A stretch of DNA of 64,000 nucleotides. Origin: Variovorax sp. PAMC26660. Lineage in GTDB: Bacteria; Pseudomonadota; Gammaproteobacteria; Burkholderiales; Burkholderiaceae_C. A program made the translations under genes and the position numbers. A model generated the notes under the pieces. It did no database searches and was not told the origin of the DNA. It saw only the letters and a list, made by a program, of their open reading frames with translations. The DNA is taken from contig NZ_CP060295.1 in the NCBI RefSeq assembly GCF_014302995.1, positions 4,207,501 to 4,271,500 of the forward strand, read 5' to 3'. Positions within the stretch are counted from its first letter, which is position 1. Each line of letters starts with the position of its first letter. This document shows, in pieces, positions 1 through 12,751 of this stretch.

Positions 1-3000
1 GCGTCGTGGGGGCCAACAACGTCAATATCGCGGCCACGGGCGACGGCAAAGACTCGAACATCCACGCCATCGGCTCCACCATCGCGGCGGGCAACACCGC
101 CAACCTGGCAGCCGACAACGACGTGACGCTGGAGGCCAGTAAAAACACCAGCAAGACGGTCGGGCAGAACTCCAGCCGCGGCGCCAACGTAGGCGTCACC
201 TTCGGGGCCGGCGCGCAGACCGGCTTCAGCATCCAGTTGGGTGTGAGCAAGGGCAAGGGCCGCGACAACCAGGACAACATCAGCTACAACGCCACCCAGG
301 TCAGCGGCGGCAAGGCCGTCAACATCAGCTCGGGTGGTGACCTGAATATGCGCGGAGGCATTGTTGAGGCCAACCGTGTCACGGCCGATGTGGGCGGCAA
401 CCTGAACATCGAGAGCCTGCAGGACGTGAGCGTAGGGCAGTCACGCCAGAGCAGCGGTGGCTTCAATGTGAGCCTGTGCATTCCGCCCATCTGCTACGGC
501 ATCAGCACAGCAGGGGGAAATGCAGCGGGGGCCAAGGCCGATGGCGTGTTCGTCAGCCCGGCCGTTCAGTCGGGCATCAAGGCCGGAGATGGTGGCTTCG
601 ACGTCAAGGTCGCGGGCAACACAGACCTGAAGGGTGCGGTGATCGAGAGCACGCAAGCCGCCATCGACAACAAGAAGAACAGCTTCAGCACCGGCGGCGA
701 GCTCACGATGAGCGATTTGCAGAACGTCAGTCAGTCCAGCGGCAGCAGCTTCTCGGTCAGCGGGAGCGTTGGGTTCTTTGCGGGGGACGAAGCGGCCCAT
801 CGACAGGTTCTGCGCGAACGCGGCATGACCGATGCGGACATCGATGCGATGCGTCGACCGGGCGGCGGAGCTGGTGTGGGCAGCCACAGCGGCAACAACC
901 AGACCAGCGTGACCAAGTCCGGCATCTCGGGTGTTGCGGGCGACCAGAACGTGAGGACCGGTGACAACAGCAGCGCCGGCACGTTGGTCAAGGACTGGAA
1001 CACCAAGACCATCATCAAGGATGTGCAGGCGCAGGCGCAGATATCGCAAGAGTTCAAGCAGAAGGCGGCCAAGGCCATTGGAGACTTTGCTGATGGAAAG
1101 CTCAACGACGCCAAGAAATTGCGCGGAGAGGCTGAAGCGGAGCTTGATCTCGACAAGAAGGCCGCGTTGATAGCTCAAGCGCGCGATCTGGAGACCAACT
1201 GGAAAGAAGGCGGGGCCTACCGCGTATTGGCACATGCAGCGTCAGGTGGTCTGAGTGGTGGAGTCGCTGGCGCCTTGGGGGCTGGTGCGAGTTCTGCCTT
1301 GATGCCGCGAATCGGGGAGGCCATCGCTGGCATGGGCTTGCCCTCGCCAGTGGCCCAGGCGGTGGGTGCCGCAACGGCGGCGGCCATCGGCGGCATGGTT
1401 GGGGGAGCGGCCGGGGCATCGGGCGCCTACAGCATTGACATCAACAACAGGCAGCTGCGTTTTACCGAGGCCCAGAAGCTTGCAGCACTTCAAGCGAACA
1501 AGACACAACAGGAAAAAGACCGACTTCAAGCGGCGGCCTGCTTCTTGGTGAAATGTGCAGATGGAATTTCGAAAGATGACAAGGCCTACGGAAAACTACG
1601 TTCTTTACAGGACGATGGGAAAAAATACGAGGCAGAACAAGCAGCTTTGCGCGCGACGGGTGAGTTTGTCTATGAGCCGTACGTTGACGCAGCACGAGAT
1701 GCACTCACGCGAAACGGAGAACTGATCCGCCGCACGGGCGGCGCGGCAAATCTGGCTGGCGGCTCGGTTGGGTTGGTCGGCGGTGGTGCTCTTGCTGCTG
1801 GCGGTGCTCTGAGTTGTCTTGAAACATTCGGGCTAGGGTGTCTTGCTGTGCCATTGGGCACCGGTATTGCAGTCTCTGCGAATGCTCAAGCTCAGGATGG
1901 GAGCAAGACGCTCTTCGGCCCCTACCAGTCAAGCGAAGGTCAGCGCGTGCTGGACTCGTTCAACGTGGCGGGCTATCCGGGTGAGCGCGACCCACTGATG
2001 GACGTGGGGATTGATGCGAGCAAGTTCGGACTTGCTTGGCTCGGGGGCAAATACATTCCCAAGGCGTTGGCGAAGGCTGAGGGAATGGCTCCGATGCCTG
2101 TTGGCGTACCGAGGACAGCAAGCGGCACATGCTCGTTCCGAGGCGACATGTTGGTCAAGACGACCTCGGGCTATACCCAGATCAAGGACATACGTGTTGG
2201 AGATGGCGTCTTCTCGCGCGATGAGCGTGAGGGCGTCGTGGGCTACAAAACCGTTCTCGCGCAATACAGCAACCCGTACCAGGAAACCGTCTATGTGACG
2301 ATAAAGGACGCCGATGGCCGGGTGCAGGTCATTGTTTCAAATGCTGTTCACCCGTTCTTTGCAAAACTACCAGGCATTGAAAGTGAAACGATTTTGCCCA
2401 AGGCGTCTGAGGGGCATAACTACCAAGGGCCAATCCTTCACGCGCAATGGGTAGATGCGGCAAACCTGAAAACGGGATACCGCCTACTGGGCAGCAGTGG
2501 AAATTGGCTTGAGGTCAAAAGAATTCAGCGGACATCGGAGCCACTGAGAGCCTATAACCTGACGGTGGCGGATTTCCATACCTACTTCGTGAAGGGTGAA
2601 GAGGGGGCAGAAGGCGTCTGGGTACACAACAATTGCTGGAGCAATTTGCCCGGAGATGCAATTGCAACCGGCAAGACAACTCCTGATGGACGCCCTTTGT
2701 ATACGTTTAAGGGGGAAGATGGCAGGCAAGTTACCGCATACCAAGGCAAGGCTGGGGATGCCAAATGGTATGACCCCAAAGTATATGCGCCTGATCTGCC
2801 AATACCTCGTGGAGTCAATGTCAAAGCGCCGCCAGAGCCGGTTGTTACATCACCGCTTGTACTCTCAACTTCAGAGCAAGCAGCAATGCTAGGGTACAGA
2901 AAAACAAATGAGAATTCAAAATTTGGAGAGCCTGTTTATTTCAATCCGAGGGCCAAAAAAGAGATGCAATACATAAGTCGAGATGTTGGTAGTGGCAATG

Positions 3001-3119
3001 GAGTGGGGAGTCATAACGGTGGTTTTTGGAAAGCAGCTTCGTCAGTCGCAAATCTCGGAAAAAATACGACCAGAACTGGCACCTTTGATGTAACTCTGGA
3101 TGAAAAAATTGGAAAATAA
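1..3119 (+). CDS. CdiA/BcpA-type contact-dependent inhibition exoprotein, 5' partial
   Basis: The reading frame is open from the window edge, so the N-terminal secretion domain and most of the filamentous repeat region lie upstream. The visible start is filamentous-haemagglutinin-like (Gly/Asn-rich beta-helix repeats, roughly residues 1-330), then a helical and Gly/Ala-rich hydrophobic pretoxin segment (about 340-480). Residues 709-876 form a HINT domain: it opens with Cys709 (CSFRGDMLV) and closes with VHNN, followed by Cys877. The last 160 residues should be the toxin. Its tail has GSHNGGFWK and RTGT, which resemble the Ntox21 group of predicted RNase toxins from memory; treat that assignment as tentative. 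GC content falls sharply after about position 2350, typical of exchangeable toxin tips. In CDI the transporter encoded downstream (5086-6816) exports this protein to the cell surface, where it delivers the toxin to neighbours. Confidence 0.9.
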   Translation, partial: VVGANNVNIAATGDGKDSNIHAIGSTIAAGNTANLAADNDVTLEASKNTSKTVGQNSSRGANVGVTFGAGAQTGFSIQLGVSKGKGRDNQDNISYNATQVSGGKAVNISSGGDLNMRGGIVEANRVTADVGGNLNIESLQDVSVGQSRQSSGGFNVSLCIPPICYGISTAGGNAAGAKADGVFVSPAVQSGIKAGDGGFDVKVAGNTDLKGAVIESTQAAIDNKKNSFSTGGELTMSDLQNVSQSSGSSFSVSGSVGFFAGDEAAHRQVLRERGMTDADIDAMRRPGGGAGVGSHSGNNQTSVTKSGISGVAGDQNVRTGDNSSAGTLVKDWNTKTIIKDVQAQAQISQEFKQKAAKAIGDFADGKLNDAKKLRGEAEAELDLDKKAALIAQARDLETNWKEGGAYRVLAHAASGGLSGGVAGALGAGASSALMPRIGEAIAGMGLPSPVAQAVGAATAAAIGGMVGGAAGASGAYSIDINNRQLRFTEAQKLAALQANKTQQEKDRLQAAACFLVKCADGISKDDKAYGKLRSLQDDGKKYEAEQAALRATGEFVYEPYVDAARDALTRNGELIRRTGGAANLAGGSVGLVGGGALAAGGALSCLETFGLGCLAVPLGTGIAVSANAQAQDGSKTLFGPYQSSEGQRVLDSFNVAGYPGERDPLMDVGIDASKFGLAWLGGKYIPKALAKAEGMAPMPVGVPRTASGTCSFRGDMLVKTTSGYTQIKDIRVGDGVFSRDEREGVVGYKTVLAQYSNPYQETVYVTIKDADGRVQVIVSNAVHPFFAKLPGIESETILPKASEGHNYQGPILHAQWVDAANLKTGYRLLGSSGNWLEVKRIQRTSEPLRAYNLTVADFHTYFVKGEEGAEGVWVHNNCWSNLPGDAIATGKTTPDGRPLYTFKGEDGRQVTAYQGKAGDAKWYDPKVYAPDLPIPRGVNVKAPPEPVVTSPLVLSTSEQAAMLGYRKTNENSKFGEPVYFNPRAKKEMQYISRDVGSGNGVGSHNGGFWKAASSVANLGKNTTRTGTFDVTLDEKIGK

Positions 3120-3120
3120 T

Positions 3121-3606
3121 ATGACGATATTCGAGCTTATTCAAGAATTGATAAAAATTAAAGATGCGAATATTTTGGTTGCAGGGAGGGTTGATGGCCT
3201 AGTTATTCCGGTTTATGGGATTGGTTCTAAAGATGGCTTTATGCTGCTCAACTTGTTGCACAAAGAGCCCTGGGCAAACGCCGAGCATAAAACGAAAAAA
3301 CTGCTTGAATCACTGAACAGTTGTCTGAAAAGGGATGAGATATTTCCTGGTGCTGGAAATACCAAAATCTACTTGGAATTAGATGAATACAATTTCGATT
3401 ACAGTATGACAATTAAATATTATGAGGCTAATGGTATTGAGTACAAGGATGATCGTTTTGTACTGGTCGCCGGAATGGAGATGATCGAAATGAGGCAAGA
3501 GTGCCCGGTTGATCCATATCTTTTGAAGATGCAAGGGGAAAATCCAATGGATAAATTTTATTTTCCTTTCCGCCCTGGAGTTGATGGAGTTGATGGAGTT
3601 GAGTAG
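3121..3606 (+). CDS. Probable CDI immunity protein (CdiI/BcpI position)
   Basis: A small, AT-rich, acidic cytosolic-type protein of about 161 residues starts 1 base after the toxin stop codon. An in-frame ATG at 3100 would overlap the toxin gene; the ATG at 3121 is preferred because it follows the toxin stop and has a GGA about 10 bases upstream. I do not recognise its family. Its role is inferred from position: immunity genes follow the toxin tip directly and protect the producer by binding the toxin. Its codon use matches the toxin end and not the surrounding genome, supporting joint acquisition. The C-terminus is odd: a 9-base unit is repeated in tandem, giving Gly-Val-Asp repeats just before the stop. 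Confidence 0.75.
   Translation: MTIFELIQELIKIKDANILVAGRVDGLVIPVYGIGSKDGFMLLNLLHKEPWANAEHKTKKLLESLNSCLKRDEIFPGAGNTKIYLELDEYNFDYSMTIKYYEANGIEYKDDRFVLVAGMEMIEMRQECPVDPYLLKMQGENPMDKFYFPFRPGVDGVDGVE
3580..3604 (+). repeat. Tandem 9-base repeat at end of immunity gene
   Basis: The unit ggagttgat occurs twice in full, followed by ggagttgag, and encodes Gly-Val-Asp, Gly-Val-Asp, Gly-Val-Glu at the C-terminus before TAG. Such short repeats can expand or contract by slippage in 3-residue steps without breaking the frame. Confidence 0.8.
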
Positions 3607-3737
3607 TTTTTCGGCAGAGGTTCGCGCAGCTTGAAGTTCCATAGTTACCTAGCCAAATGGGCTGCGGCGCGGAGTTACTATGCAAAATGAGGTCCGCACT
3701 AAAGTTGACAGCGTACCCTGTATTTTGAGATGAAGAA

Positions 3738-4185
3738 ATGGCCAAAGTTGTTGAATTTTATATTGAAAAAAATGTGATGAGTTATCCGAATGCCAGTTAC
3801 TCTGACTACTGGCGGTTAGCGCGCTCGAAAGATGAAAGTCTTTCCGTGAAAATAAGTATGACAAATATACTTGCGCGTGGATTCCTATTGTTGGGTCAAA
3901 AATGACTCGGAAACGCTCTCGAGCATTATTCAGTTCATCGAAAAAATAATTCGCCTTCAGAAAGGCGAGCAAGAGGGATTTGTTGAGTATTCCGATGAAA
4001 TGAATGTTGCCTTTGAACGCGCGGGCGTTCAATTTAGTTGTGTGATTGATTCGTGGGAAGAAGTCCCGGAAGGGAATTTTTCTCTCATTGAAGTTATTTT
4101 TTTGGTAGAGGCGTGGCATAGGTTTTTGCAAATACCCGATTCCGAGCAATCGAAAATGGAATTTTCTCTCCCTTGTTTTATTTAA
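3738..4185 (+). pseudogene. Frameshifted second immunity-like gene in the CDI locus
   Basis: An ATG at 3738 opens a 55-codon frame (start MAKVVEFYIEKN) that stops at 3903-3905. The next forward frame is open from 3862 to the stop at 4183-4185 and continues the same style of sequence (DSYCWVKNDSETLSS onward). A +1 shift inside 3862-3902 would join them into one protein of roughly 148 residues. Base composition is AT-rich like the toxin and first immunity gene. Small orphan immunity genes often lie downstream of CDI toxin cassettes, so this is probably an old immunity gene that has decayed. I recognise no family. A sequencing error in the window would give the same picture. Confidence 0.6.
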
Positions 4186-4412
4186 ATATTTTGAGATGGC
4201 TTATGACGCTTTCTTTGAAGGTGCAGGACAGATCCTGTAACGAAGGGTTTTAAAAAATCACACCGCAGGTCTGAGAAATATCGCAGAACTACATCAATAC
4301 GCCACCTCCTGCGCTGGCGGCAGGAATCATGATCATCAAGTGAGTACTTATGGCTGGTGATATCTATTTCAGACTCAAAAAGTCGGATGCCAAATCCCGT
4401 GTTTTTGATTTA

Positions 4413-5024
4413 ATGAAAATGTCTGAAAAAATGAATTGGTGGGCCGTAGTTGTTGCCAGTGGCATGCTATCGGCATGCGCCTATAGCAAGATCAATCCCG
4501 AAGCTGCACTTGCCGATATTCGTGCCAACAATGGCTACAACGAATTGCGCGATGTCGAGCCTGGCACGGCCAAGATCGTGGTGCGGGCTGCAGGCTCAGG
4601 TTTTCCAGCGCATTTCTCTGTCAGCACCTCGCCGCAGGCCTGCCAGGAATTCACCTCCTTGGGCAGCGTGGTCTACACGGGCCGCGGCGTCATCTACCCC
4701 TGGATCGCCAACGCCGTGCAAGGCACCAGCAGGGCGCTCGGCAAGACGGAGCCCTATCGCGTTCACGAAGCAAAGCCTGGAGAGCCAATTCAAGTGAGCG
4801 GCTACGGCTCCTGGGGCAGCGGCACCGGTTCGGGATATCGCTCTGGCAACTGCGGCCCTGTGACGCTCGGATTCACTCCGAAAGAAGGGCATGCCTACAT
4901 TGTTGAGTTCGGCTGGGGTAGCAAACCCGCCTGCAACTTGACTCTGGTGGACGCCACCGATCCAGATGCGTTGGTGCCTGTTCCATCAAAGACCATTGAG
5001 GGATGTCCCGCGCCGGTTCGTTGA
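4413..5024 (+). CDS. Predicted lipoprotein in the BcpO position of the CDI locus
   Basis: The N-terminus has a lysine-containing start, a hydrophobic stretch and the lipobox MLSAC, so the mature protein should be lipidated on that Cys and anchored in a membrane. The mature part (about 180 residues) has Gly/Ser-rich segments, further cysteines and no family I recognise. A longer frame from ATG 4350 would put over 40 residues ahead of the Cys; the ATG at 4413 (or 4419) gives a normal signal peptide but has no strong ribosome binding site, so the start is uncertain. Burkholderia bcpAIOB loci carry a small lipoprotein gene, bcpO, between the immunity and transporter genes, and this gene sits in that slot. 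The link is positional; homology was not tested. Confidence 0.7.
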   Translation: MKMSEKMNWWAVVVASGMLSACAYSKINPEAALADIRANNGYNELRDVEPGTAKIVVRAAGSGFPAHFSVSTSPQACQEFTSLGSVVYTGRGVIYPWIANAVQGTSRALGKTEPYRVHEAKPGEPIQVSGYGSWGSGTGSGYRSGNCGPVTLGFTPKEGHAYIVEFGWGSKPACNLTLVDATDPDALVPVPSKTIEGCPAPVR

Positions 5025-5085
5025 ACTGAGTGCGGTCGACGGGGCCGGTATAGGCCTGCACAAGAATAGAAAGAGGGAGTTTGAT

Positions 5086-6816
5086 TTGAAACGCAACCTG
5101 TGGGCTGCCGCCGTAGCGGCCGGCCCATTGCTGGCTCTGGCTCAGCAATCACCCACTACGCCGAAACCTTTCGTTGAACAGCAGCGTCAGCAAGAGCGTG
5201 AGCGAGCACTGCGCGAGCAGAACGAACGCACTGTTGATCAGCGTCCGCAGGCTGCACCATCGGCGCCAAACCAACGCATTCCCGAGTCCGAGTCCCCGTG
5301 CTTTCGCATCGATCGCGTGCTGCTTGTCGGCGAGCAGTCCGAATCCTTCCAATGGGCCGTCGCTGATCTGTCTGGCCCCGACGGCAACGATTCGCCCATC
5401 GGTCGATGCCTCGGCACCGCCGGCGTCAACGTAGTCCTCGCACGTGCCCAGCAAGCCGCCATCGCCCGCGGCTACGTCACGACCCGCGTTCTCGCCGCAC
5501 CGCAGGATCTGTCGACCGGCACCTTGACGCTGTCGCTCGTACCGGGCCGCATCGCCGCCATCCGCACGACCGCAGACTCCTCATCGACTTTGCTCGGCAG
5601 CTCAGCCCTGCTCGCCACTGCCATCCCCGCACGCCCCGGCGATCTGCTGAACCTGCGCGACATCGAACAAGGCCTGGAAAACCTCAAGCGTTCCCCCACC
5701 GCCGAAGCCGACATCCAGATCGAACCCTCCACAGCCGCAAACGCCAAGCCCGGCGACAGCGACCTCGTCGTCAAGTACGTCCAATCCAAGAAGTGGCGAG
5801 TCACCCTCAGCCTTGACGACAGCGGCACCGAAGCCACAGGCCGCTACCAGGCCGGCGCCACCCTGTCCCTGGACAACCCCTTCGGCCTGAACGACCTGTT
5901 CTACGTCAGCGCCAACCACAACATCAACAACCACGTCTTCGGCGACCCGGCCAAGGGCACCGAAGGCCAGACTGTTCACTACTCGCTGCCCTACGGCTAC
6001 TGGCTCCTGGGCTTCACCGCCTCCAACAGCCAGTACCACCAGAGCGTGGCCGGCCTGAACCAGAACTACGTGTACGCGGGCAAGAGCAACAACGCCGAGG
6101 TCAAGTTCTCGCGCCTGGTCTACCGCGACCAGAGCCGCAAGACCACGGTGGCCATCAAGGGTTGGCGCCGCGAGTCGCGCAACTTCGTGGACGACACCGA
6201 GGTCGAGGTGCAGCACCGCGTGGTCGGGGGCTTGGAATTCAGCCTGAACCACAAGGAGTTCATCGGCGACGCAACGCTTGAAGGCACGCTGGCCTACAAG
6301 CGAGGCACGGGCGGCTTCGGCTCGCGCGCCGCGCCGGAAGAAGAGTTCGGTGAGGGCACCTCGCGTCTGAAGCTGTACACGGCGGACATCAGCCTCAATG
6401 CGCCTTTCAAGCTCGGCGAGCAGAAGATGCGCTACTCGGGCCTGATCCGGGCACAGTGGAACCGCACGCCGCTGACACCGCAAGACCGCTTCGCCATCGG
6501 CGGGCGCTACACAGTGCGTGGCTTCGATGGCGAGACGAGCCTGCTGGGCGAACGCGGATGGCTGCTGCGCAATGACATCGGCTGGGCGGTGGGGCAGAGT
6601 GGCGCGGAGCTTTATGTAGGCATGGACTACGGCCATGTCGGTGGCCGCTCCACGGTCGACCTTCTCGGCCGCAGCCTTGCCGGCGCAGTCATCGGCGTGC
6701 GCGGCCAGTGGACCAAGCTGAGCTACGACTTCTTTGTCGGCGCGCCCATCCGCAAGCCCGAGGGCTATCGCACTGCGAAGGTCACGCTGGGCTTCAATCT
6801 CAACGCAAGCTTCTGA
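5086..6816 (+). CDS. Two-partner secretion outer-membrane transporter (CdiB/BcpB, ShlB/FhaC family)
   Basis: This TpsB transporter exports the CDI exoprotein across the outer membrane. The TTG at 5086 is the likely start: it follows a purine-rich ribosome site (aagaggga) and gives a clean signal peptide (LKRNLWAAAVAAGPLLALAQ); the frame extends further upstream only by overlapping the lipoprotein gene. The mature N-terminus is Gln/Arg-rich and probably forms the plug helix and linker, then a POTRA region (about 60-190), then a beta-barrel to the end. The barrel carries VRGF near residue 478, the conserved L6 motif of Omp85/TpsB proteins, and ends in Phe as expected of a BAM-dependent barrel. 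Length (576 residues) is normal. It closes the exoprotein-immunity-lipoprotein-transporter order. Confidence 0.92.
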   Translation: MKRNLWAAAVAAGPLLALAQQSPTTPKPFVEQQRQQERERALREQNERTVDQRPQAAPSAPNQRIPESESPCFRIDRVLLVGEQSESFQWAVADLSGPDGNDSPIGRCLGTAGVNVVLARAQQAAIARGYVTTRVLAAPQDLSTGTLTLSLVPGRIAAIRTTADSSSTLLGSSALLATAIPARPGDLLNLRDIEQGLENLKRSPTAEADIQIEPSTAANAKPGDSDLVVKYVQSKKWRVTLSLDDSGTEATGRYQAGATLSLDNPFGLNDLFYVSANHNINNHVFGDPAKGTEGQTVHYSLPYGYWLLGFTASNSQYHQSVAGLNQNYVYAGKSNNAEVKFSRLVYRDQSRKTTVAIKGWRRESRNFVDDTEVEVQHRVVGGLEFSLNHKEFIGDATLEGTLAYKRGTGGFGSRAAPEEEFGEGTSRLKLYTADISLNAPFKLGEQKMRYSGLIRAQWNRTPLTPQDRFAIGGRYTVRGFDGETSLLGERGWLLRNDIGWAVGQSGAELYVGMDYGHVGGRSTVDLLGRSLAGAVIGVRGQWTKLSYDFFVGAPIRKPEGYRTAKVTLGFNLNASF

Positions 6817-6905: not shown

Positions 6906-8345
6906 TCAGCCGTCCTTCCAACCTCCACCCAACGCCTTATAGATCGTCAGCCGATTGGTCTGCTCCGTAAGCTGCAACCCAATCAGCGTCTGCTGCGCCG
7001 CGTAGTAAGCGCGCTGCGCATCGAGCACGTCCAGATAATTGCTGGCACCGCTCTTGAACAGCGACTGCGACAACTCGAAGCTGCGCGAAGTGGCGCCCAG
7101 CAACGAGCGCTGCGCATCCAGCCGTTCGGCCAGCGTGCGGCGTTCGGCCAGCGCGTCGGCCACTTCGCGGAACGCGGTCTGCACGGTCTTCTCATAAGTC
7201 GCGAGCTGGATCTTCTGCTGCGTCTCGGCCACGCGCAGGTTCGCGCGGTTGGCGCCGCCGTCGAAGATCGGCACGCTGATCGAGGGCGCGAAGCTCCATG
7301 CCTTGCTGCCGCCCGCGAACAGGCCCGACAGGTTGCTGCTGGCTGTGCCGGCCGATGCGGTGAGCGCGATGCGTGGGAAGAATGCGGCGCGCGCCGCACC
7401 GATGTCGGCGTTGCTGGCGCGCAGTGCGTGCTCGGCGGCGCGCACGTCGGGGCGCTGCTGGAGCACGTCCGATGACAGGCCGGCCGGCGGCACCAGCAGT
7501 TGCGCGGCGGTGGTCGTGGCCGTTGTCGATGTGGCCGGCACCGGCAGCAGCTCGGCCGGTGGCGTGGCACCGACCAGCAGGGCCAGCGCGTTGCGGGCCT
7601 GCTCGACCTGGCCGTCGAACGCAGCCGCATCCGCGCGCGCAGCATCGACGGTGCTTTGCGATTGCGCCAGCGCCAGACCCGATTGCGAGCCCAGGGCGTG
7701 GCTGCGCTGGATCAGCTCGAAGGACTTGCGCTGGCTGTCGAGCGTGCTGCGCGCAAGCTGCAGTCGCTGCTCGTCGGCGGCCAGTTGAAGCCATGCGGTG
7801 GCCACGGCGGAAATCAAGCTGATCTGCGTGCTGTGCCGTGTCTCCTCGGTCTGGAAGTAGCTCTGCAGCGCGGATTCGCTGAGGTTGCGCACGCGCCCGA
7901 ACAGGTCGAGTTCGTAGCTCGTCAGGCCGAGGTCGGCGCTGTACTGCGTGGCGTAGCGCGCTTCGCCGCTGGTCGACAGGCCGCCCGGCGTGCGCGAGCG
8001 GCTGCCGCCCGCACCGGCCTCGACGGTCGGGAACAGGCCGGCGCGCACTATGCCGTACTGGGCCCGCGCACGCTCGATGTTGAGCGCGGCCACGCGCAGG
8101 TCGCGGTTGTTGGCGAGCGCGAGTTCAACCACGCCCTGCAGGCGCGGATCGACGAAGAAGTCGCGCCATGCAACGTCGAGCGGCGTGGCCGCCTCGACAC
8201 CGGCGGAGGGCAGGGCTTGCGGCACCGGAGCGACGGGTTTCTCATACGCGGGCGCAAGGTTGACGCAACCCGCGAGCGCGGCCGATGCCATGGCCGCACA
8301 GGCGAGTGCGCGCAGAGGGAATCGGGAAAAGGATTGGCGTCGCAT
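6906..8345 (-). CDS. RND efflux outer-membrane channel lipoprotein (NodT/OprM family)
   Basis: This 479-residue protein is the outer-membrane TolC-like channel of the tripartite pump encoded upstream. It has a signal peptide with the lipobox LAGC, so it is lipidated, as OprM is. Two repeated outer-membrane efflux domains follow, visible as Ala/Leu/Arg-rich helical repeats (for example LELARSTLDSQ-like and VAETQQKIQLATYEKTVQTA-like segments) and a conserved YLDVLDAQR stretch near the end. Its start overlaps the stop of the pump gene by 1 base (TGATG), so translation is coupled. It is the last gene of the adaptor-pump-channel operon. Confidence 0.95.
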   Translation of the reverse strand: MRRQSFSRFPLRALACAAMASAALAGCVNLAPAYEKPVAPVPQALPSAGVEAATPLDVAWRDFFVDPRLQGVVELALANNRDLRVAALNIERARAQYGIVRAGLFPTVEAGAGGSRSRTPGGLSTSGEARYATQYSADLGLTSYELDLFGRVRNLSESALQSYFQTEETRHSTQISLISAVATAWLQLAADEQRLQLARSTLDSQRKSFELIQRSHALGSQSGLALAQSQSTVDAARADAAAFDGQVEQARNALALLVGATPPAELLPVPATSTTATTTAAQLLVPPAGLSSDVLQQRPDVRAAEHALRASNADIGAARAAFFPRIALTASAGTASSNLSGLFAGGSKAWSFAPSISVPIFDGGANRANLRVAETQQKIQLATYEKTVQTAFREVADALAERRTLAERLDAQRSLLGATSRSFELSQSLFKSGASNYLDVLDAQRAYYAAQQTLIGLQLTEQTNRLTIYKALGGGWKDG

Positions 8346-11300
8346 CAGTGGCCTCCCTGTTCGGCAGCGGCCGCAGCGGGCTGCGATCCATTCGCCTCGT
8401 CATCAGGCACAACAGGTTTGCGCCGCCCCTGCAACCATCCGCGAATCAACGCAAAGAACAGCGGCACGAAGAAGATGCCGAGCGCAGTACCGACCACCAT
8501 GCCACCCAGCACCGCAGTGCCGATCGACTGGCGGCCACCCGCACCGGCGCCTGTGCCGATGGCCAGCGGCAGTACGCCGAAGCCGAAGGCCAGCGAGGTC
8601 ATCAGGATCGGGCGCAGGCGCAGCCGCACCGCCATCAGCGTGGCCTCGACCACGCTCTTGCCTTGCTCCTGCAACTGCTTGGCGAACTCGACGATCAGAA
8701 TCGCGTTCTTCGACGACAGCCCCACGGTGGTGAGCAGGCCGACCTGAAAGTACACGTCGTTGCTCAGGCCCCGGAAGCTGGTGAACATCAGCGCGCCGAC
8801 GATGCCCAGCGGCACGACCAGAATGACCGAAAACGGCACCGACCAGCTCTCATACAGGGCCGCAAGACACAGGAACACGAACAGGATCGAGATGGCATAC
8901 AGCACCGGCGCCTGCGCACCCGACAGCCGTTCCTGGAACGATGCGCCGGTCCATTCGTAGCCGATGCCGGGTGGCATCTGCTTCATCACTTCGTCCACCG
9001 CAGCCATGGCGTCGCCCGAACTCACGCCCGGCGCGGCATCGCCCACGAACTCGTAGCTCGGGCTGCCGTTGTAGCGCTGCAGTTGCGGCGAGCCATAAGT
9101 CCAGCGCGAGCTGGAGAAGGCCGGGAACGGCACCATCTGGCCGAGGCTGTTGCGCACGCTCCAGCGGTCGATGTCGGCGGGCAGCATCCGAAAGGCGGTG
9201 TCGCCCTGCATGTACACGCGCTTCACGCGCCCGTTGTCCAGAAAGTCGTTGATGTAGGTGCCGCCCATCGCGCTCGACAGCGTGCTGTCGATGTCGGACG
9301 TGGCCAGGCTGGCAGCCCCAGCGCGCGCGTCGTCGATGTCGACCGCAAACTGCGGCGTGTCGTCCAGGTTGTTGCTGCGCACGTTCGCCACCTCGGACCG
9401 TTTGGACAACAGTTCGATGAGTTGGTCGCGTGCCTTCACCAGCGCATCGTGGCCCAGGCCGTTGATGTCCTTCAGGTGGAAGTTGAAGCCCGCGTTGGCG
9501 CCGAGCCCGCGCACTGCCGGCGGCAGCAGCACGAAGATGCGTGCGTCGCGGATGGTCGACAGGTCCTTGTTGGCGCGCCGCGCCAGCGCTGCGGCCGACT
9601 GGCCGTCGCCTTCGCGCTCGGCCCAGTCCTTGAGCTTGACGAAGGCGCGCGCCGAACTCTGGTCGCCGTTCTGTCCGGTGATGACGTTGACGCTCAGCAC
9701 CTCGGGCTGTTGGGTGAAGTAGTCCTGCATCTGCGTGACCACCGGCTGCAGCCGCGCGTCCGACGCGCCGGGCGGCAGCGTCACCTGCACCTGCAAAAAG
9801 GCCTGGTCTTCATCGGGCAGGAACGAGGTCGGCAGTCGCATGAACAAGAGCGCCATCACGGCCGCGATCAGCAGGTACACCACGATGCTGCGCTTGCCGC
9901 GCCGAATGATGCCGCCCACCACGCCCTGGTAGCGATCGGCGCCCTTGTCGAAGTTGCGGTTGAAGCCTGCAAAGAAGCGGTCGGCCGCGCCGAGCACGCC
10001 GCGGCGGGCCACCGCGTGCTGGCCCTTGGCGACGGGCTTGAGCAGCGTCGCGCACAGCGCCGGCGTGAGCGTGAGCGCCACGAACACCGACAGCGCCATG
10101 GCCGAGACGATGGTGATCGAGAACTGCCGGTAGATCACACCGGTCGAGCCGCCGAAGAAGGCCATGGGGATGAACACCGCCGACAGCACCAGCGCAATGC
10201 CGACCAGCGCCGGCGTGATCTCGGCCATCGACTTGCGCGTGGCCTCCTTGGGCGAGAGGCCTTCCTCGTGCATCACGCGCTCGACGTTCTCCACCACCAC
10301 GATGGCGTCGTCCACCAGCAGGCCGATGGCCAGCACCATGCCGAACATGGTGAGTGTGTTGATCGAGTAGCCCGCAATCGACAGCACGCCGAAGGTGCCC
10401 AGCAGCACCACCGGCACTGCAATCGCCGGGATCAGCGTCGCGCGGAAGTTCTGCAGAAAGACGTACATCACCAGCACGACCAGCAGCATGGCCTCGGCCA
10501 GCGCCTTCACCACTTCGTCGATGGATGCACTGACGAAGGGCGTGGTGTCGTAGCTCACGAAGGTTTGCAGCTGGTTGGGAAAGAGCGGTTGCAGCTCGGC
10601 CACCTTGGCCTTCACCGCCTCGGCCACCTGCACCGCGTTGGCACCATCGGCCAGCACCACGCCCAGCCCCGCGCCGGGGCGGCCACCGAGTTGCGAGCGC
10701 ACCGTGAGGTTCTCGGCGCCGAGTTCGACGCGGGCCACGTCCTTCAGCCGCACCACGGCGCCGTCGGGCGTGGCGCGCAGCACCACGTTCTCGAACTGCT
10801 CCGCCGTCTGCAGCTTGCTGCGCGCGGTGATGGTGGCGTTGAGCTGCTGTTGCGCGCTGGCCGGCAGCGCGCCGAGCTGGCCGGCCGACACCTGCGCGTT
10901 CTGCGCGGTGATGGCGGCGCCGACGTCCGAAGGCATCAGCGCGTACTTGCGCAGCTTGTCGGGGTCGAGCCACAGGCGCATGGCATAGCCGGTGCCCAGC
11001 GTCTGCACTTCGCCCACGCCGTCGATGCGGCTGATGACGTCGACCAGGTTGCTGCTGATGTAGTCGCCCACGTCCACGGCCGATGCACTGCCGTCGCCCG
11101 AGTACATCGAGACGATCAGCAGGAAGTCGTTGCCGCCTTTGGTGACGGTGACGCCGCGGCTTTGCACCTGCTGCGGCAGGCGCGACATGGCCTGCTGCAG
11201 CTTGTTCTGCACCTGCATCTGGGCCACGTCGATGTTGGTGCCGGCGTTGAAGGTGAGCGACAGGCGAGCCACGCCCGACGAGTTGCTGGTCGACTGCATG

Positions 11301-11530
11301 TAGAGCAGGTTGTCCAGTCCCTTCATCTGCTGCTCGATGACCTGCGTGACGGAGTCTTCGACCGTCTTGGCCGAGGCGCCGGTGTAGGTGGCATTGATGG
11401 ACACGCGTGACGGCGCGATGTCGGGGTACTGCTCCAGCGGCAGCGTGCGGATGGCCATCAGGCCGGCGAGCATGACGACGATGGAGAGCACCCACGCGAA
11501 GATGGGGCGGTCGATGAAGAACTGGGCCAT
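8345..11530 (-). CDS. RND multidrug efflux pump, inner-membrane subunit (AcrB/MexB, HAE-1 family)
   Basis: This 1061-residue protein is the proton-driven transporter that captures hydrophobic compounds from the periplasm or inner membrane. It begins MAQFFIDRPIFAWVLSIV, the standard HAE-1 N-terminus, and shows two sets of transmembrane helices around large periplasmic loops. GLLVDDAIVVVENVERV in helix 4 carries the Asp pair of the proton relay, and GLSSKNAILIVEFAK marks the second half. Length is normal for AcrB. It lies 9 bases after the adaptor gene and overlaps the channel gene by 1 base. No regulator gene is adjacent, so control must come from elsewhere or from the promoter upstream of 12751. 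Confidence 0.97.
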   Translation of the reverse strand: MAQFFIDRPIFAWVLSIVVMLAGLMAIRTLPLEQYPDIAPSRVSINATYTGASAKTVEDSVTQVIEQQMKGLDNLLYMQSTSNSSGVARLSLTFNAGTNIDVAQMQVQNKLQQAMSRLPQQVQSRGVTVTKGGNDFLLIVSMYSGDGSASAVDVGDYISSNLVDVISRIDGVGEVQTLGTGYAMRLWLDPDKLRKYALMPSDVGAAITAQNAQVSAGQLGALPASAQQQLNATITARSKLQTAEQFENVVLRATPDGAVVRLKDVARVELGAENLTVRSQLGGRPGAGLGVVLADGANAVQVAEAVKAKVAELQPLFPNQLQTFVSYDTTPFVSASIDEVVKALAEAMLLVVLVMYVFLQNFRATLIPAIAVPVVLLGTFGVLSIAGYSINTLTMFGMVLAIGLLVDDAIVVVENVERVMHEEGLSPKEATRKSMAEITPALVGIALVLSAVFIPMAFFGGSTGVIYRQFSITIVSAMALSVFVALTLTPALCATLLKPVAKGQHAVARRGVLGAADRFFAGFNRNFDKGADRYQGVVGGIIRRGKRSIVVYLLIAAVMALLFMRLPTSFLPDEDQAFLQVQVTLPPGASDARLQPVVTQMQDYFTQQPEVLSVNVITGQNGDQSSARAFVKLKDWAEREGDGQSAAALARRANKDLSTIRDARIFVLLPPAVRGLGANAGFNFHLKDINGLGHDALVKARDQLIELLSKRSEVANVRSNNLDDTPQFAVDIDDARAGAASLATSDIDSTLSSAMGGTYINDFLDNGRVKRVYMQGDTAFRMLPADIDRWSVRNSLGQMVPFPAFSSSRWTYGSPQLQRYNGSPSYEFVGDAAPGVSSGDAMAAVDEVMKQMPPGIGYEWTGASFQERLSGAQAPVLYAISILFVFLCLAALYESWSVPFSVILVVPLGIVGALMFTSFRGLSNDVYFQVGLLTTVGLSSKNAILIVEFAKQLQEQGKSVVEATLMAVRLRLRPILMTSLAFGFGVLPLAIGTGAGAGGRQSIGTAVLGGMVVGTALGIFFVPLFFALIRGWLQGRRKPVVPDDEANGSQPAAAAAEQGGH

Positions 11531-11539
11531 GGGCGAGCC

Positions 11540-12751
11540 TCAGCGTGCGATGGTGGTGGAGGCTGCGTCGGGCTCGACGCTCGCCAACGGCTCCGCGCCG
11601 AGGTCGACCACCTTCACCTTGTCACCCACCTTCACGCGCTGCGAGCCTTCCATCATCACGCGGTCGCCCGCGGCCAGCCCGTCGATCACCTGCCAGCGCG
11701 TGCCGACCGCGCGGCCTATGTTGATCGGGCGCTTGGCGACCTTGTTGTCTGTGCCGATCACCAGCGCCGAGGCGCTGCCGTCGGGCGCACGCGTCACGGC
11801 CTGCTGCGGCACCAGCAGCGCCGCGGTGTTCACGCCTTCCTGCAGCACGGCGCGCACGTACATGCCGGGCATCAGCAGCTTGTCGGGGTTGGGTACCACT
11901 GCGCGCAGTGTCACGCTGCCAGTGCCGGCATCGACCGTCACGTCACTGAAGGTGAGGCGGCCGGCATGCGGGTAGGCGCTGCCGTCCTCCAGCAGCAACT
12001 GGATGCGCGCCTCGGCATCGTTCGCGCGCTGCAGCCGTCCGCTGGCCAATTCGCGCTTCAGGCGCAGCAGTTCGCTGCTCGACTGCGTGACGTGCACATG
12101 GATCGGGTCGAGCTGCTGCACGGTGGTGAGCGCCGCGGCCTGGTTGGCCGTGACCAGCGCGCCGGGCGTCACGGTCGACAGTGCGGCCCAGCCGGTGATC
12201 GGCGAGGTGATGCGCGTGTAGCCGAGCTGGATGCGTGTGGTCTGCTCGGCGGCCCGCGCCACGCCGAGGTCGGCCTCGGTCTGCTGCTCGGCGGCCTGGG
12301 TTTCGTCGAACACCTGGCGGCTGATGGCGTCGATCTTCACCAGTTCGGCGTTGCGCTTGGCCACGGTGCGCGCTGTGGTCAGGGCCGACTCGGCCTTGCG
12401 CACGCTGGCTTGCGCGCTGGCGTGCGCCGCCTGCAACGAGGCTGGATCGAGCTGGTAGAGCACCTGGCCGGCCTTGACTTGCGAGCCTTCGATGAAGAGC
12501 CGCTCTTTCAGGATGCCGCCGACCTGCGGGCGGATCTCGGCGATGACCGGCGCCGCGGTGCGGCCGGGCAACTCGGTGCTCAGGGCCAGGGTCTCCTGCT
12601 TCAGGGTGACGGCGCCGACTTCCTTTTCTGGTGCGGCTGCTGCCTTCGACGGACCGGGCGCCTCCACGCTGGTGCGTGAACAACCTGCGAGCGCGGTGAT
12701 GGCCAGGGCCGTGAAGATCAGGGCGAAGCGGGATGGGGTTTGGTCAGGCAT
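11540..12751 (-). CDS. RND efflux periplasmic adaptor subunit (AcrA/MexA family)
   Basis: This 403-residue membrane-fusion protein links the inner-membrane pump to the outer-membrane channel. It has a signal peptide with lipobox LAGC, so it is a lipoprotein. The lipoyl-like segment begins near residue 65 (IRPQVGGIL), is followed by an alpha-hairpin of Ala/Arg/Glu-rich coiled coil (about 100-165), returns with GYTRITSPITGW and ends with the beta-barrel and membrane-proximal domains (PDKLLMPGMYVRAVL). It is first in the three-gene operon; the 138-base gap upstream to the stop of the next gene must hold the promoter. Confidence 0.96.
   Translation of the reverse strand: MPDQTPSRFALIFTALAITALAGCSRTSVEAPGPSKAAAAPEKEVGAVTLKQETLALSTELPGRTAAPVIAEIRPQVGGILKERLFIEGSQVKAGQVLYQLDPASLQAAHASAQASVRKAESALTTARTVAKRNAELVKIDAISRQVFDETQAAEQQTEADLGVARAAEQTTRIQLGYTRITSPITGWAALSTVTPGALVTANQAAALTTVQQLDPIHVHVTQSSSELLRLKRELASGRLQRANDAEARIQLLLEDGSAYPHAGRLTFSDVTVDAGTGSVTLRAVVPNPDKLLMPGMYVRAVLQEGVNTAALLVPQQAVTRAPDGSASALVIGTDNKVAKRPINIGRAVGTRWQVIDGLAAGDRVMMEGSQRVKVGDKVKVVDLGAEPLASVEPDAASTTIAR

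Follow-up and report, generated by a model that had tools for sequence, protein, structure and literature searches.

Burkholderia thailandensis encodes a contact-dependent inhibition (CDI) system, bcpAIOB, in which the gene for a small predicted outer-membrane lipoprotein, BcpO, lies between the immunity gene and the gene for the transporter BcpB. BcpO lipoproteins of this type are made as precursors of 73-74 amino acids (aa) with nearly identical mature parts, and deletion of BcpO in B. thailandensis reduced CDI and stopped autoaggregation, as reported in PMC3415462. The same paper describes other bcpO genes, which specify 57-172 aa proteins without a signal; according to a review, deletion of that signal-less type did not significantly affect inhibition (PMC7662968). 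Another review calls the specific activity of BcpO unknown (PMC9086364), and a 2023 paper describes BcpO as only sometimes present and of unknown function (PMC10449530). The discoverers of BcpO asked whether it serves the conserved part of the exoprotein BcpA or the transporter BcpB, a question that one swap experiment left undecided (PMC3990724). Here, we describe a lipoprotein family, called family A, encoded at the equivalent position in a 64,000-nucleotide stretch of DNA (the window; G000:C1:4207501-4271500) of a 7.39 Mb Variovorax-type genome. With slightly less than even confidence, we propose that family A is a BcpO-like dedicated outer-membrane accessory of the exoprotein and that it handles the exoprotein's C-terminal half.

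Judged from its genes alone, the locus at the left end of the window is the 3' end of a CDI-type two-partner locus of Variovorax. All parts lie on the plus strand in the order exoprotein end, immunity-position gene, family A lipoprotein gene, and ShlB-type tpsB; open frames and domain matches thus confirm the order given in a preliminary description of this DNA. The features of a CDI-type two-partner system are present. Specifically, TpsB matches the ShlB model (E 1.6e-105) as well as POTRA_2 and POTRA_3, and the large exoprotein carries haemagglutinin repeats and an exchangeable toxin end. The preliminary description had called the locus complete, which is not so within the window: the exoprotein is cut by the window edge, and 1038 of its 3635 aa lie inside. 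The whole frame spans G000:C1:4199712-4210619, with the N-terminal part left of the window. The genome holds a second locus with the same layout at about 6.73-6.75 Mb, with an exoprotein frame of 3504 aa; its lipoprotein is 72% and its TpsB 95% identical to those of the window locus.

Family A resembles the B. thailandensis BcpO in being a predicted outer-membrane lipoprotein, with lipobox and sorting residue, whose gene sits between the immunity gene and tpsB. It differs in size, at 203 aa (182 mature) compared with the 73-74 aa of the BcpO precursor. The identification of family A as BcpO was rejected on this published size, not on an alignment (PMC3415462). No Pfam or NCBIfam family reaches its cut-off against the window lipoprotein, which bears out the earlier remark that the protein in the BcpO slot belongs to no nameable family. 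On sequence comparison, family A is an undescribed lipoprotein family almost confined to the genus Variovorax: the named relatives were all Variovorax in one search, and five Variovorax and one Xenophilus (sp. L33) in a second. None of the papers listed by literature searches on BcpO, Variovorax CDI, and lipoproteins of two-partner secretion (TPS) deals with these Variovorax lipoproteins, although such a paper may still exist. The lipobox cysteine is present in all 36 aligned members, and the residue that follows is T (19) or A (17), never D. From the lipobox and this residue, we infer sorting to the periplasmic face of the outer membrane. Family A is under purifying selection. The ratio of nonsynonymous to synonymous substitution rates (dN/dS) is 0.06-0.31 in 25 of 28 pairs, with the other three saturated, and dS is high.

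The slot before tpsB was compared across the genus. TpsB matches at E<=1e-60 occur in 64 of 101 Variovorax genomes; at E<=1e-100, they occur in 34 of 399 genomes of the family and 29 of 399 of the order, some of which were fetched. The comparison set comprises 55 loci, namely all 53 places in the genus with a TpsB at least 80% identical over at least 450 residues, plus locus L010 and the partial locus L101. None of the 55 has an exoprotein TPS domain downstream of tpsB. Among 45 fetched loci with a TpsB below 80%, the domain is downstream (tpsB first) in 32, upstream in five (L109, L121, and L138-L140, the last three with TpsBs at 38-39% and from another family), and in neither place in eight. 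The window genes follow the A-I-O-B order of bcpAIOB. The exoprotein likewise precedes tpsB in 46 of the 55 loci, from one named record and 30 genomes, in each of which a frame of 1000 aa or more ends no further than 5 kb ahead of tpsB. The slots of the 46 hold family A in eight loci, family B in nine (in pieces in L085), family C in three (a fragment in L144), family D in five, family F in one, and no recognised lipoprotein in 20. The preliminary description had named absence of the lipoprotein from other loci of this order as a finding that would refute it. Such absence is half the case: family A itself is missing from 38 of the 46, but 18 of those 38 hold another lipoprotein family there.

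Slot genes replace one another. B and A stand side by side in L010, D is followed by B in L074 and L150, and B fragments, one of them inverted in L096, adjoin a full-length A in L096 and L101. The genus search found 11 near full-length family A copies, nine of which sit 12-76 bp before tpsB; of these nine, the L101 copy precedes a truncated tpsB and the L100 copy a tpsB that matches in two pieces. The KBW07 copy (L010) lies 67 bp before tpsB. In two tpsB-first loci, L011 and L103 (the latter with its copy broken), the family A gene comes after those for exoprotein and immunity, at the far end from tpsB.

The toxin ends of the eight A loci are all unlike, with no match to another A locus at E<=1e-3. 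Therefore, family A is unlikely to be a toxin-specific protein or an immunity protein. That lipoprotein immunity genes seem to exist gives some credit to the idea of a lipoprotein immunity or orphan immunity protein; a candidate, family G, lies directly behind the exoprotein in two loci, L083 and L142, that share 86% identity in their toxin ends. However, one family A faces eight unlike toxin ends, and in each of the eight A loci another open frame stands directly behind the exoprotein. We regard an immunity role for family A as very improbable. Family G has the appearance of an immunity protein dedicated to a single toxin type and would suggest a toxin that acts in the periplasm.

The part of the locus that family A does accompany is the exoprotein's C-terminal portion. 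When exoproteins are clustered by their region ahead of the toxin (pre-toxin), all eight A loci fall in one cluster of 13, together with four B loci and one with no recognised lipoprotein, and family A occurs in none of the 33 loci outside it. The A loci sit in a nine-row clade with 99% support. Changes of slot label were then counted on trees and compared with 200 shuffles; the trees cover the 44 loci in which every part is present, and thus neither L010 nor L145. Family A needs two changes on the pre-toxin tree, six on the TpsB tree, five on a tree of the TpsB N-terminal 230 aa (TpsB-N), and five on the TPS domain tree; the shuffle mean is 6.7, with minima of 5, 4, 5, and 5. A second set of trees gives two changes for pre-toxin, five for TpsB, and five for TPS. 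With all labels, the counts are 15, 22, 19, and 20 in the same order (pre-toxin, TpsB, TpsB-N, TPS); on each tree, the shuffles average about 22.9 and reach 19 at the lowest. Restricted to loci with a slot family, they are 7, 11, 10, and 12, with shuffle means of 13.7-13.9 and minima of 9, 11, 10, and 10. A window-by-window scan along 38 full exoproteins, six of them from A loci, places the signal more narrowly: the A association beats every shuffle only at residues 2088-2731, numbered on the window's exoprotein, with two and three changes against a shuffle minimum of four. Before residue 2088, A needs four to six changes, within the shuffle range, with four, equal to the minimum, in the first window and at 1830-2087. 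These results suggest that family A follows the C-terminal part of the exoprotein rather than TpsB or the toxin. Thus, a gene that lies 12-76 bp before tpsB nevertheless goes with a part of the exoprotein gene some 2-6 kb away.

That short distance is what would commend an accessory of TpsB itself, one that folds or gates the transporter as BamE does for BamA. TpsB is an Omp85 protein (PMC9086364), and slot family B, which carries a BamE domain, fits the TpsB-N tree better than the pre-toxin tree (five changes compared with eight). For family A, however, the TpsB tree is near the shuffle mean (six changes, mean 6.7), sister TpsBs differ in having it (L064, beside L062, is without family A), and in L011 and L103 tpsB lies on the far side of the exoprotein. 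Moreover, none of the 36 family A members matches the BamE domain PF04355 at E<=0.1, and the modelled fold is different. A role for family A on the transporter alone is, in our estimation, improbable.

Family B is the commonest slot lipoprotein and lies beside tpsB in L067, L073, L074, L083, L098, L106, L141, and L150. Sequence comparison gives it a BamE domain. At E<=0.001, PF04355 is matched by 11 of the 28 members aligned (best 1.5e-7), though not by the L074 protein that heads the family, and three relatives carry a precomputed PF04355 assignment. The first eight matches of its predicted fold are BamE chains, at E 0.019 or worse. Like BamE, family B would be an outer-membrane lipoprotein beside an Omp85 protein. 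The same domain is hinted at for family D, with three of 13 members matching (best 4.9e-4). Family D needs three changes on the pre-toxin tree, five on TpsB, five on TpsB-N, and three on TPS. Family C was seen in the slot of L063 and L071, and the protein from L071 matches LptE weakly, at E 0.046 and under the cut-off.

A further possibility is that the lipoprotein gene merely rides with a recombining 3' cassette composed of the exoprotein C-terminal half, toxin, immunity gene, and lipoprotein gene, having its own role or none in CDI. These genes are adjacent, so transfer of one cassette could yield the same association that we ascribe to function. The turnover of slot genes described above fits such a history, with the B fragments of L096 and L101, the mixtures in L010, L074, and L150, the family C remnant in L144, and a solo family A in L102, as does the share of loci with no recognised slot lipoprotein. 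On the other hand, dN/dS is low over high dS, family A is kept while the toxin ends differ in all eight A loci, and the gene lies directly before tpsB yet does not track the TpsB tree. We consider hitch-hiking unlikely, though clearly the strongest competitor of a dedicated accessory.

Several observations, beyond the cassette argument, weigh against family A being a dedicated helper of the exoprotein's C-terminal half. Twenty of the 46 same-order loci lack a recognised slot lipoprotein, and thus TpsBs and exoproteins of this kind do not in general depend on one. In L067, an A-type exoprotein is paired with a B lipoprotein. The last two exoprotein windows before the toxin give four changes for A, a count within the shuffle range (minimum three). 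The pre-toxin tree carries a long-branch warning, and the related loci in the label-change counts are not independent. The all-label count for TpsB-N (19) equals the lowest of 200 shuffles, and so there is some linkage between TpsB and the slot. Family B shows no coupling to the pre-toxin region: it needs eight changes on the pre-toxin tree, eight on TpsB, and eight on TPS, and its better fit is the N-terminal part of TpsB, with five. Finally, Foldseek finds nothing at E<=0.001 for the fold model of family A (predicted local distance difference test score, pLDDT, 85).

We nonetheless take an accessory role in CDI, which the preliminary description had raised as a possibility, to be the best reading for family A. 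A producing cell retains the C-terminal part of CdiA in its periplasm and exports it once the receptor has been bound (PMC9086364). This arrested part would be within reach of a lipoprotein anchored to the outer membrane's inner face, and handling of that half is therefore the role proposed. Specifically, family A would encounter the haemagglutinin-repeat and pretoxin portion, would bind, shield, or orient it, would hold it near the transporter or guide it on, and would help its export once contact occurs. Its family, position, selection, independence of toxin type, and association with the exoprotein C-terminal part are observed; its location, binding, and role in secretion are what the proposal would add. 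The model of family A is a predicted transthyretin-like sandwich, a common fold also present in AlgF and others, and we draw no sequence relation or function from this likeness.

Dedicated helpers have precedents elsewhere in type V secretion. TpgA and SadB are periplasmic helpers of trimeric autotransporters, encoded beside the surface protein (PMC8151025). They serve another type V subclass than the two-partner locus of family A, and neither is among the matches listed for the family A fold model. The family B model also matches 9vnj, the trimeric autotransporter AtaA with the N-terminal domain of a partner, which we take to be TpgA. The partner in 9vnj is given as TpgA in PMC13082670. A wider idea is that in Variovorax the slot before tpsB serves as a general plug-in site, open to periplasmic outer-membrane lipoproteins whose folds are unrelated (transthyretin-like sandwich, BamE-like, and others). 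Each would solve the handling of the arrested C-terminal half of a CDI exoprotein, with the helper matched to and exchanged with that half, independent of transporter and toxin. We regard this generalization as doubtful.

The exoprotein's junction and toxin end complete the comparison with described systems (Table 1). The preliminary description had taken VHNN as the junction; WVHNN is instead the end of the PT-HINT domain, and the junction is NNRQLRFTE, which stands 392 residues ahead. Of the 48 exoproteins compared, 26 carry an NN-type motif (NNRQL, NNYL, and the like) ahead of the variable tail. Among the other 22, a simple NN pattern finds no match in 20, and its two matches (L073 and L145) are not junction-like. 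The window exoprotein has NNRQLRFTE in place of the Nx(E/Q)LYN junction of Burkholderia-type CDI, and for this reason we speak of a Burkholderia-like order and do not class the locus as bcp. In Pseudomonas CdiA, WVHN is a pretoxin motif linked with intein-like domains (PMC9086364). The Variovorax exoprotein is similar in having a HINT domain that ends in WVHN ahead of the toxin, with an intein C-terminal model reaching 14.3 bits at the HINT end, just below the cut-off of 15.6. It differs in having the separate NNRQLRFTE junction upstream of the HINT domain.

Table 1. Features of the CDI-type locus, in window coordinates
Feature	Position	Strand	Basis or remark
CdiA/BcpA-like exoprotein, C-terminal 1038 aa	3..3119	+	Frame runs off the left edge of the window
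Fil_haemagg_2 (PF13332) repeat region, exoprotein C-terminal half	12..455	+	E 1.7e-31
Constant/variable junction NNRQLRFTE, at the position of VENN / Nx(E/Q)LYN	1443..1469	+	Shared with relatives
PT-HINT (PF07591) domain, closing in WVHNN at 2619-2633	2130..2633	+	E 2.7e-43
Ntox21 (PF15526) predicted toxin domain	2880..3113	+	E 8.7e-19, 68.1 bits, curated cut-off 25
Presumed immunity protein of 168 aa, with a further in-frame ATG at 3121	3100..3606	+	Function assigned from position only
Two overlapping short frames (3738-3905, 3871-4185), between immunity gene and lipoprotein gene	3738..4185	+	Open-frame list
Lipoprotein of family A, 203 aa including the signal and 182 aa from the cysteine on (mature); lipobox LSAC at 4467-4478	4413..5024	+	A after the cysteine
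TpsB (CdiB/BcpB-like) outer-membrane transporter, POTRA_2 + POTRA_3 + ShlB, presumed TTG start	5086..6816	+	Domain search

The presumed immunity protein matches no known family in domain searches. The two short frames behind it appear to be a single, broken gene, possibly one for an orphan immunity protein, with no relative beyond its own locus among the fetched loci. Elsewhere, an 83-aa protein with two membrane segments lies directly behind the exoproteins of L081, L086, and L099, whose toxin ends are 92-94% identical, and is likely their immunity protein; a displaced copy occurs in L088, which has its toxin end in common with L150. Convergent with the window's tpsB is a resistance-nodulation-division (RND) efflux set (outer-membrane factor, pump, and adaptor) at 6906-12751 on the minus strand, recognised by inspection of the sequence.

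Family A also occurs in less regular settings. In L120 (L120:5997-8281), an exoprotein end is followed by two distant copies (35%) and by several small genes in a row that may be orphan immunity genes; TpsB was not found in the region fetched. The 19.9 kb fetched for L102 contain a solo copy (L102:11650-12219) but match neither an exoprotein nor TpsB, and a frame near this copy resembles, by eye, the gene just upstream of the window exoprotein (L006:2101-3414). In L104 (L104:1790-2051) and L105 (L105:8874-9536), a fragment of a TPS-domain exoprotein directly adjoins a fragment of family A; these are apparent deletion remnants.

The natural swaps among Variovorax loci bear on the question posed for BcpO. 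For family A, they point to the C-terminal half of the exoprotein and favour the answer that names the conserved part of BcpA, and they supply matched and mismatched pairs of helper and exoprotein. A link between two-partner secretion and the toolkit of outer-membrane assembly would follow from the presence of BamE-domain lipoproteins in this slot. In particular, a BamE-type accessory of a two-partner transporter, as family B beside tpsB may be, would, if true, merit a study of its own.

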